Source: an uncultured Prochlorococcus sp.
GTDB taxonomy: Bacteria; Cyanobacteriota; Cyanobacteriia; PCC-6307; Cyanobiaceae
Length of the DNA stretch: 44,592 nucleotides
Direction: 5' to 3'
Assembly (NCBI GenBank): GCA_902538515.1
Contig: CACBFH010000006.1
Coordinates: 1 to 44,592 of the forward strand
The notes under the pieces are model-generated. The model had not been told where the DNA came from and ran no database searches. It saw nothing but the letters and a program-made list of their open reading frames with translations. The position numbers were made by a program, and so were the translations under genes. Every line of letters begins with the position of its first letter. Position 1 is the first letter of the stretch. This document shows positions 25,537 to 26,743 of this stretch, piece after piece.

Positions 25537-25609
25537 GCCGGGATAGCTCAGTTGGTAGAGCAGGCGACTGAAAATCGCCGTGTCCCCAGTTCAAATCTGG
25601 GTCCTGGCA
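25537..25609 (+). tRNA. tRNA-Phe (anticodon GAA)
   Basis: The 73-nt sequence starts GCCGGGATAGCTCAG, has anticodon loop CTGAAAA (GAA), T arm AGTTCAAATCT, and closes with TCCTGGC plus discriminator A (one G-T pair in the acceptor stem). Its last 24 bases and the following seven are repeated 1,042 bp downstream, which marks it as the integration target of a mobile element. Confidence 0.96.
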
Positions 25610-25616
25610 CCTTTAA
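25586..25616 (+). repeat. Direct repeat 1 (attachment-site-like, 3' end of tRNA-Phe)
   Basis: Runs from the T stem of tRNA-Phe into the flank. It matches 26628-26658 at 30 of 31 positions; the only difference is C25608 versus A26650. Repeats of a tRNA 3' end are the usual outcome of tyrosine-recombinase integration that leaves the tRNA functional. Confidence 0.85.
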
Positions 25617-25632
25617 TAAAAGGGTTAAATGC

Positions 25633-25655
25633 GCATCTGAAAAGGTGCTTTTTTA
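25633..25655 (+). terminator. Terminator after tRNA-Phe
   Basis: GCATCT pairs with AGGTGC (one G-T pair) around a GAAA loop, followed by six Ts. It lies inside the two direct repeats, so it would have been brought in with the inserted DNA. Confidence 0.7.
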
Positions 25656-25703
25656 ATGCCTAAAATTAGTTCTGACAGTACTTTTCAGGATATCTAAAAA
25701 ACA

Positions 25704-25731
25704 CTCAGAGAGCAAAAAAGGGCTCTCTGAG
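25704..25731. repeat. Perfect 10-bp palindrome inside the inserted segment
   Basis: CTCAGAGAGC (25704-25713) and GCTCTCTGAG (25722-25731) are exact reverse complements with an 8-base loop of six As and GG. No T run follows on the plus strand, so it is not a plain terminator there; 11 bases later the first tandem motif begins. Confidence 0.7.
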
Positions 25732-25742
25732 AGGCACATATT

Positions 25743-25766
25743 TGGAATGTAAGTGGAATGTTAGTT
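25743..25766 (+). repeat. Tandem motif copy 1 (TGGAATGTNAG x2), candidate recombinase arm site
   Basis: Two head-to-tail units of TGGAATGT(A/T)AGT, ending TT. The 24-base block matches 26530-26553 at 23 of 24 positions in the same orientation. It lies about 127 bases inside direct repeat 1. Direct-repeated short sites just inside attachment cores are what arm-type integrase sites look like; the role is inferred. Confidence 0.6.
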
Positions 25767-25874
25767 GAGCAATAAAAATCATAAAAATAATGGAGCACCA
25801 GCACTTTGATTAATTGATTTTGAAAACTATCTATTTGACATATGATTTAAAGAAGAAATAATTATTTTTAATTT

Positions 25875-26401
25875 ATGTCTTCAGATAAAAAACCATTATC
25901 TAAAAAAAGAGAGGTTATCTTCTAGCAATTTTAGGAGGAAGTTTTGGTGGTCCATTTGGGTGGATTACATCTCCACTAGTCTTGTATGTTTTAAATAAAA
26001 AAGTTAAATCTAAAGATGGATCTCAACCAAATATTTTTAAATTATGGGGTTTGTTAGGACTAATTGGAGCACCCATAAGTTTATGCCTTGTTCTACTTCT
26101 ACCTATTCCTGAAGAAACTAAAAAAGCAGAATCAAATAAAGATTTTTTTGTTACTAAAGAAATGTATGGAGAGAAATGGCCTTTTACTGTTGATGAAGGT
26201 GCTGTCTTCTGTAAAGGAAATTCAATTTATTTTGGACATAAAGGAAAGTTCTATGCTCTTAATGGAACAGCAAAAGCACAATTTGGATATCCTTTCCCAA
26301 ATGCTATTTGGAAAGCAGACCCTAGACCAGAAATGGCAAAATATGGTCTCAAAATTCCAACTACAGCAATAGATGAAAAAGCCAGAAGTCAATGTAAGTA
26401 A
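25875..26401 (+). pseudogene. Frameshifted membrane protein with DUF2511-like C-terminus
   Basis: An ATG at 25875 reads MSSDKKPLSKKREVIF and stops at TAG 25923. The rest of the gene continues in another frame without interruption to 26401. Adding one A to the seven-A run at 25902-25908 joins both parts into about 175 residues: KKKRGYLLAILGG, a first hydrophobic segment to about residue 40, a second (LWGLLGLIGAPISLCLVLLL), and a soluble domain with YGEKWPFTVDEGAVFC, YALNGTA and a last cysteine. The last part resembles DUF2511 (E. coli YebY) as I remember it. The bases could be a real one-base loss, a sequencing error, or a slippage site. It is the only coding content between the two tRNA-derived repeats. 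Confidence 0.65.
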
Positions 26402-26474
26402 ATTTATTAAAAAGTAGGGAGCCTGGTTATTATTTCATTTCTTACTTATTGGCTATTTAATTTAGACATTGAAT

Positions 26475-26483
26475 AACATTCCA
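26475..26483 (-). repeat. Inverted fragment of the tandem motif
   Basis: AACATTCCA is the reverse complement of TGGAATGTT, the core of the tandem motif, and lies 47 bases before copy 2. A 9-base match can occur by chance in AT-rich DNA, but its location beside the other copies is notable. Confidence 0.4.
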
Positions 26484-26529
26484 ATTTCTTTTTTAGGATA
26501 TAAAGAAAACCTCTTATAAGAATTTGTTG

Positions 26530-26553
26530 TGGAATGTTAGTGGAATGTTAGTT
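26530..26553 (+). repeat. Tandem motif copy 2 (TGGAATGTTAG x2), candidate recombinase arm site
   Basis: Two head-to-tail units of TGGAATGTTAGT ending TT, 23 of 24 bases as in copy 1 at 25743. It lies about 75 bases inside direct repeat 2, so each end of the insert carries one block. Role inferred from position. Confidence 0.6.
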
Positions 26554-26627
26554 AAAAAAATAAGTCCAAATATGGGTCTTTTTGGTATTAAAATGATACT
26601 AAAAATCAAATATTTTCAATATAGCCT

Positions 26628-26658
26628 CCAGTTCAAATCTGGGTCCTGGAACCTTTAA
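26628..26658 (+). repeat. Direct repeat 2 (partial tRNA-Phe 3' end)
   Basis: A copy of the tRNA-Phe T arm and acceptor 3' strand plus seven flanking bases, with nothing tRNA-like before it, so it is not a tRNA gene. It marks the distal end of the inserted segment. Confidence 0.85.
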
Positions 26659-26681
26659 AACCCAGTCTGAGAAAGGGTTTT
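26657..26681 (+). terminator. Terminator next to direct repeat 2, probably the ancestral tRNA-Phe terminator
   Basis: AAAACCC (26657-26663) and GGGTTTT (26675-26681) form a perfect 7-bp stem with an 11-base loop. It immediately follows the distal repeat, as expected if it once followed tRNA-Phe before the insertion. Confidence 0.65.
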
Positions 26682-26743
26682 ATAATTTCTAGACATTCAT
26701 AAAATTGATTTTTCTTTTATTTTATTTTTTCAATTAAAAATTT

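Follow-up and report, generated by a model that had tools for sequence, protein, structure and literature searches.

A probable family of small integrase-less elements inserted at tRNA-Phe in Prochlorococcus

A 1,042-bp segment beside the tRNA-Phe gene of an uncultured Prochlorococcus probably belongs to a family of non-autonomous elements that insert at this tRNA in the genus, with the enzyme supplied in trans, a reading to which we give a probability of roughly 0.7. It was drawn from a contig stretch of 44,592 nucleotides, referred to here as the window, and from comparison with other genomes, in which insertions and empty sites, a common arm plan, matching left and right arm classes, changing cargo and cross-host similarity of ends and cargo can be read directly. 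In the proposed mechanism, each element keeps a recombination site, consisting of a tRNA-derived core and tandem arms near each end, around interchangeable cargo. Integration at the 3' end of the tRNA would rebuild the tRNA and supply it with a new terminator, and the enzyme would come in trans from those rare elements of the att family that bear an integrase. The arms would bind the integrase, the hairpins may insulate the rebuilt tRNA, and the window copy may still be movable.

Structure of the element in the window

The integration target is a tRNA-Phe gene with anticodon GAA (25,537–25,611, + strand; ARAGORN, Rfam tRNA score 67.5 bits), the 3' end of which would have been rebuilt by the element. 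This 3' end, together with flanking bases, forms the proximal core (attL, 25,586–25,616, + strand) of a 31-nt direct repeat with its distal core (attR) at 26,628–26,658 on the same strand. By the ARAGORN boundary, the core comprises the final 26 bases of tRNA-Phe and five outside it; by the Rfam boundary, seven lie outside. The two copies are identical at 30 of 31 positions and start 1,042 bp apart, in agreement with the repeat, single mismatch and spacing given in the initial annotation of this DNA, and such a repeat is expected by chance at about 2e-17 per position pair. As that annotation also noted, the proximal core is followed by its own terminator inside the insert, a terminator-like hairpin with a T-run (25,633–25,648, + strand; z −2.3 for the fold of 25,604–25,660) that the element would supply to the rebuilt tRNA. 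A second terminator-like hairpin (about 26,656–26,682, + strand) stands after the distal core and is probably the displaced host terminator. The proposal that it once directly followed the tRNA finds support in comparable sequence right behind the core in ten empty sites; its folding energy is ordinary against shuffles (z −1.0).

Between the cores, the insert has conserved ends which assign it to class A of the arm classes described below. The left end (25,612–25,777, + strand) is 86–95% identical to class-A elements of the main group (blastn against the fetched loci and an alignment of 10 left ends), and the right end (26,525–26,660, + strand) is 83–90% identical to main-group class-A elements, with 70% in G264 (blastn). 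Inside each end, an 11-bp arm unit, TGGAATGTNAG, occurs in two tandem copies. The left arm-like pair (25,743–25,765, + strand) lies 132 bp from the tRNA 3' end and the right pair (26,530–26,552, + strand) 98 bp before the distal core; taken as 24-nt repeats (25,743–25,766 and 26,530–26,553), they are identical at 23 of 24 positions. A single inverted arm-like copy (26,474–26,483, − strand) on the inner side of the right end is present in most rows of the right-end alignment, and by eye no inverted copy was seen in the left end of the window's insert. The left end also contains a 10-bp hairpin (25,704–25,731), terminator-like on the − strand, which has a fold z of −6.1 and is recognisable in the alignment of class-A left ends. 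A palindrome between the right arm and the core (26,579–26,605; fold z −2.5), seen by eye in classes A, C and D, is perhaps a second protein site.

Going by these alignments, the window copy is a mosaic, with class-A ends and an interior like other loci of two genomes. The mosaic, like the arm pairs and the hairpin at 25,704–25,731, does not appear in the initial annotation. The first 166 bp and last 136 bp of the insert match class-A ends, while insert bases 213–803, the cargo module (25,824–26,414, + strand), match G264:C3 with 91.4% nucleotide identity, and bases 278–792 (25,889–26,403) match G053:C29 with 88.6% (blastn). A search for the interior elsewhere had been put forward with the initial annotation, and it is at these two loci that the module was recovered; the tRNA-Phe core was not found in the cargo regions fetched from either. 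G264 is distant from the window, with an upstream flank 65–67% identical and a downstream flank 77% identical. At the G053:C29 locus (L195, 7,024–9,314), a frame with prohead protease (PF04586) and capsid (PF05065) domains is immediately followed by a gene closely homologous to the cargo gene, a neighbourhood that suggests cargo exchange with capsid-bearing satellites.

Only one gene-like frame is present within the insert (25,982–26,401, + strand), the remaining part of a DUF2511-type cargo gene (PF10709, E 1.2e-6; phrog_2950, E 4e-11). The gene is broken: its N-terminal portion is not in frame with the rest, and two other genomes have longer homologues, of 175 and 177 aa. The earlier description of a single damaged gene and no integrase stands: none of the integrase family found here lies inside the insert, and no listed frame is integrase-like.

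Empty and occupied sites across the genus

We read 141 tRNA-Phe sites, the window included, out of 246 genomes that matched the tRNA-Phe query, some of them weakly. Most of these sites were empty (n = 105), with the match to the next host gene starting 49–98 bp past the tRNA end. A second core was present at 25 sites, seven were longer without a recognised second core, and four ran off the contig. Seventeen of the sites had been chosen, namely 13 for the arm motif (7 + 6), three for an integrase (L152, L153 and L198) and the window itself, and the other 124 were taken from among the matches listed, well-assembled contigs first. Those 124, picked regardless of arms or integrase, comprised 105 empty sites, 13 with a second core, five longer sites without one and one contig end. 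Two loci were left out of the count, the second piece of the MIT 9107 site, which has no tRNA on its contig (L018), and a duplicate of G126 (L158). L191 and L192 each have one arm-like pair, and a second core was not recognised in either.

Among the sites compared by their flanks, the two closest to the window, G228 and G099 (90–93% nucleotide identity), are both empty, and the third closest, G121, holds a class-A element with different cargo. Empty sites in relatives had been set beforehand as a test of the initial proposal of site-specific integration at the tRNA. The proportion of empty sites and the absence of the segment from the nearest compared relatives mean that the integration reading is not refuted, and the different cargo found between shared ends is further support for it.

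Arm classes and conserved ends

Twenty-six inserts were compared: those at the 25 second-core sites and element 1 of MIT 9107, where the contig breaks off within a further element. A 19-base arm pattern was found exactly in nine of the 266 genomes of the genus searched (reversed control, 0), and a 23-base class-A arm pattern, allowing up to three mismatches, in 16 of 266, one of which (G109) is of the related class D; the reversed control of this pattern again matched none of the 266. When a collection of 84,980 species, each represented by one genome, was scanned for the exact arm pattern, seven stretches were recovered, all labelled Prochlorococcus or, in one case, uncultured Synechococcaceae.

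The position of the arms is also conserved. In classes A, C and D, a shared 20-mer starts at +129 to +146 from the tRNA and at −94 to −117 from the distal core, a near-constant spacing despite different cargo. In the five inserts of classes B and E where the 20-mer is itself the arm, it starts 41–46 bp after the tRNA and 75–86 bp before the core. The arm sequences fall into seven classes (A, B, B2, C, D, E and F), and the left and right arms are of identical class in all 21 inserts classed at both ends (9 A, 3 B, 2 B2, 3 C, 1 D, 2 E and 1 F), with class units that were picked by eye on these same inserts and with five of the 26 inserts not classed at one or both ends. Within the class-A ends, arm columns are more conserved than the mean of the remaining end columns, both on the left (0.971 versus 0.876) and on the right (0.931 versus 0.736).

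Some ends are far more similar than the host flanks beside them. The window copy and G116 share 94.7% identity at the left end and 84.0% at the right end, compared with 74.9% in the upstream flank, and G039 and G116 are 96% identical at both ends with a flank identity of 76.6%. The ends of G116, being far closer than its flanks, look to have been transferred between hosts. Across nine elements (36 pairs), however, identity of the ends rises with that of the flanks (Spearman 0.57 and 0.72), which makes part of the pattern look vertical; the correlation is due in part to the distant pair G264 and G263.

Variable cargo, shells and tandem elements

Cargo varies between these inserts. The same small repeat protein is encoded in six class-A inserts, a point against the main reading, but at least five kinds of cargo occur between the conserved ends of class-A elements as a whole, in which no trace of the integrase family described below was seen. 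Other inserts encode small proteins that appear by eye to be secreted or lipoprotein-like, TPR proteins, a carbamoyltransferase, a superinfection-immunity-like protein and restriction-type genes. The superinfection-immunity domain (PF14373, E 1.9e-7) occurs in the tRNA-Phe insert of G049 (L108). An 8-kb insert in G215:C1 (L198) is a possible defence island, with genes for a DNA methyltransferase, an HSP90-like ATPase and a helicase that has an Mrr-type nuclease domain, alongside a fragment of an integrase gene. A PADLOC search for defence functions gave no match for seven of the eight proteins tried. Further genes lie outside the elements proper, including a 1,188-aa protein, by eye an autotransporter-like repeat protein, beyond the distal core of G264 (L017, 1320–4886 downstream of the tRNA), and a glycosyltransferase family 11 gene (PF01531) between the distal core and the host gene of G116 (L021, 1114–1893 downstream of the tRNA).

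At the other extreme are near-empty shells, one of 252 bp in G063, in which the left end is fused to the right end at the arms, and one of 146 bp in G134. Tandem elements at the same tRNA were observed in MIT 9107 (G021; L190 and L018), G183 (L152) and G034 (L151), each composed of an integrase-bearing or B2-class element and then the end of another element.

Shells and tandems are among the features that would be expected if the inserts were decayed remnants, that is, internal deletion derivatives which lost the integrase, kept attL and attR and move at most in cis. The closest known kind, as described in PMC7563491 and PMC5704250, is the CIMEs and microCIMEs of streptococci, ICE and IME derivatives that retain attL and attR and have no integrase. 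CIMEs of 1.2–13 kb carry cargo and microCIMEs of 130–220 bp have no genes, and CIMEs are defined there as products of the decay of mobilizable or conjugative elements, moving in cis (PMC7563491, PMC5704250). Like those described there, the window copy keeps both 31-nt cores without an integrase, tandems with autonomous elements occur, and the two shells are close to microCIMEs in size. Only two inserts look like deletion derivatives: the first element of MIT 9107 (L190) retains both ends of the integrase element of G135 (85% identity over 128 positions and 80% over 198) and has the same arm class, and the G215 insert retains its integrase fragment. The decay reading fits both of these, and it may fit the window copy, with its broken cargo gene and missing left inverted arm. 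These two traits and the mismatch in its core count against the reading in trans for this copy.

As an account of the family, we nevertheless regard decay as unlikely. It sits poorly with the variety of class-A cargo between conserved ends, with arm classes that match left and right, with arm columns more conserved than the rest of the ends and with ends far closer than the host flanks. Furthermore, 22 of the second-core inserts have no integrase homology, and in 18 of these the host gene begins no more than 123 bp past the distal core, hence they stand alone with no adjoining full element. Set against the descriptions of CIMEs, the stand-alone copies, class-matched arms and changed cargo in Prochlorococcus suggest use in trans, and conjugation genes were not recognised. 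The initial annotation had offered a decayed remnant or a small satellite mobilised in trans; evidence at the level of the family favours the latter, although for the window copy the alternatives are not fully separated.

Integrase-bearing relatives

Mobilisation in trans would need a helper, and a candidate was found in elements at the same tRNA. The 5.3-kb insert of G183 encodes an intact putative integrase of 513 aa (L152, 15,218–16,759, − strand) beside a serine recombinase (PF00239), and relatives of the integrase occur in L105, L151 and L153–L157. Profile matches to this family were detected in nine of 266 genomes. At tRNA-Phe, the gene is broken in G135, split by the contig end in G138 and a fragment in G215. 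It is intact in G034, where the tRNA is absent from the contig and both cores and the downstream genes are present, and three other relatives have tRNA-Cys within the fetched stretch. The larger elements with a recombinase that the initial annotation had suggested looking for at this tRNA are represented by G183, G135, G138 and G034, with an enzyme that is only a putative tyrosine recombinase. A conjugation gene was not recognised in G183, the intact integrase-bearing relative.

Tyrosine recombinases follow the pattern R..(LR)H..Y, and R305, R413, H414 and Y451, invariant in six sequences of the family, are residues which we take to be catalytic. No recombinase match was obtained in Pfam, PHROGs or PDB, and in three hhalign trials against Pfam-positive recombinases the matches were weak though co-linear (probability 11.6, 0.9 and 56.4%). 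An ATP-grasp_4 match of one of the six members (E 0.0017) was taken as spurious. We therefore describe the family as a putative divergent tyrosine recombinase. Homology to it is present in three of the 26 inserts and absent from 23, the window copy included; this family was the only one searched for inside all 26, other recombinases being sought by viewing the listed frames and with Pfam on part of them.

Some integrase-bearing and integrase-less elements share their recombination-site architecture. Arm class C includes the integrase-bearing G183 and the integrase-less G103 and G250, and the similarity of G183 to G103 extends to both ends (left, 76% over 238 positions; right, 73% over 153). 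With the window copy, G183 shares the left end (72% over 195). The arms of class A are so far without a partner of this kind, as the search of the 266 genomes gave no element that combines an integrase with class-A arms, and the window's own genome (74% complete) has no match to the integrase profile at 1e-5.

An enzyme other than the integrases of tRNA-Phe elements could instead act as helper, either a recombinase encoded in the chromosome, about 389 aa long, or an integrase borne by phages or vesicles. Some PF00589 match is present in 229 of 266 genomes, frames of about 389 aa are common among the PF00589 matches listed, and the one PF00589 protein of the window's own genome, encoded by a 386-aa frame, is of the same type by length only; the absence of a class-A integrase from the 266 genomes also speaks for such a source. 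Several arm classes nonetheless argue for several arm-binding enzymes, and two integrase elements match integrase-less ones in both arm class and ends. For a phage source in particular, the exact arm, core and left-end patterns had no match in IMG/VR, the relatives of cargo and integrase none in IMG/VR or phages, and the DNA of the window element none in phages or plasmids. We consider this alternative improbable, and a phage or plasmid origin visible in these collections is not supported.

A further alternative, without site-specific integration, is that the tRNA 3' end was long ago duplicated in tandem and the spacer then drifted. This would explain the direct repeat itself and nothing else, and is rejected as scarcely credible, contradicted by the empty sites and by the mosaic of different cargo between shared ends, as well as by the arm repeats and the integrase-bearing elements at the same core.

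Relation to known elements and implications

In Prochlorococcus itself, tRNA-bordered cargo elements are known as tycheposons, which PMC10872708 describes as elements of 4–200 kb that involve seven tRNA types and encode a tyrosine recombinase. The likeness lies in the genus, the tRNA border, the cargo and the presence of integrase-bearing elements at tRNA-Phe too. The window element differs from that quoted description in measuring only 1,042 bp from core to core and in having no recombinase, and the present integrase diverges too far to be matched by Pfam. The kinship with tycheposons suggested in the initial annotation is therefore plausible as regards a tRNA-bordered cargo element in this genus, but not in size or recombinase content. 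MITEs and CALINs, as described in PMC11389934, likewise lack autonomy and carry the sites that a helper enzyme recognises; here, by contrast, the proposed helper is a tRNA integrase acting site-specifically, and the hitcher carries cargo within an arm-core-arm site. PICMIs resemble the present family as small marine helper-dependent elements, and differ, according to PMC10803314, in encoding three core proteins for excision and replication. Among the papers listed by our literature search, none was seen to deal with arm-matched integrase-less tRNA elements in Prochlorococcus, and the original description of tycheposons may include integrase-less forms.

More tentatively, at somewhat under even odds, the inserts may represent attP-only cassettes of a few hundred bases to a few kb, each an arm-core-arm site around any cargo gene, with one tRNA as a shared dock for several integrases of distinct arm specificity. 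Such cassettes would be a tRNA counterpart of integron cassettes, in which the ends stay constant while the cargo is replaced and traded with capsid-bearing satellites.

The movement of single genes between streamlined ocean bacteria is poorly explained. If the proposed reading is true, a landing site with a gene or two would let single genes be transferred cheaply, and elements of this kind would escape surveys based on integrases. The paired integrase-bearing and integrase-less elements make the idea of mobilisation in trans directly testable.
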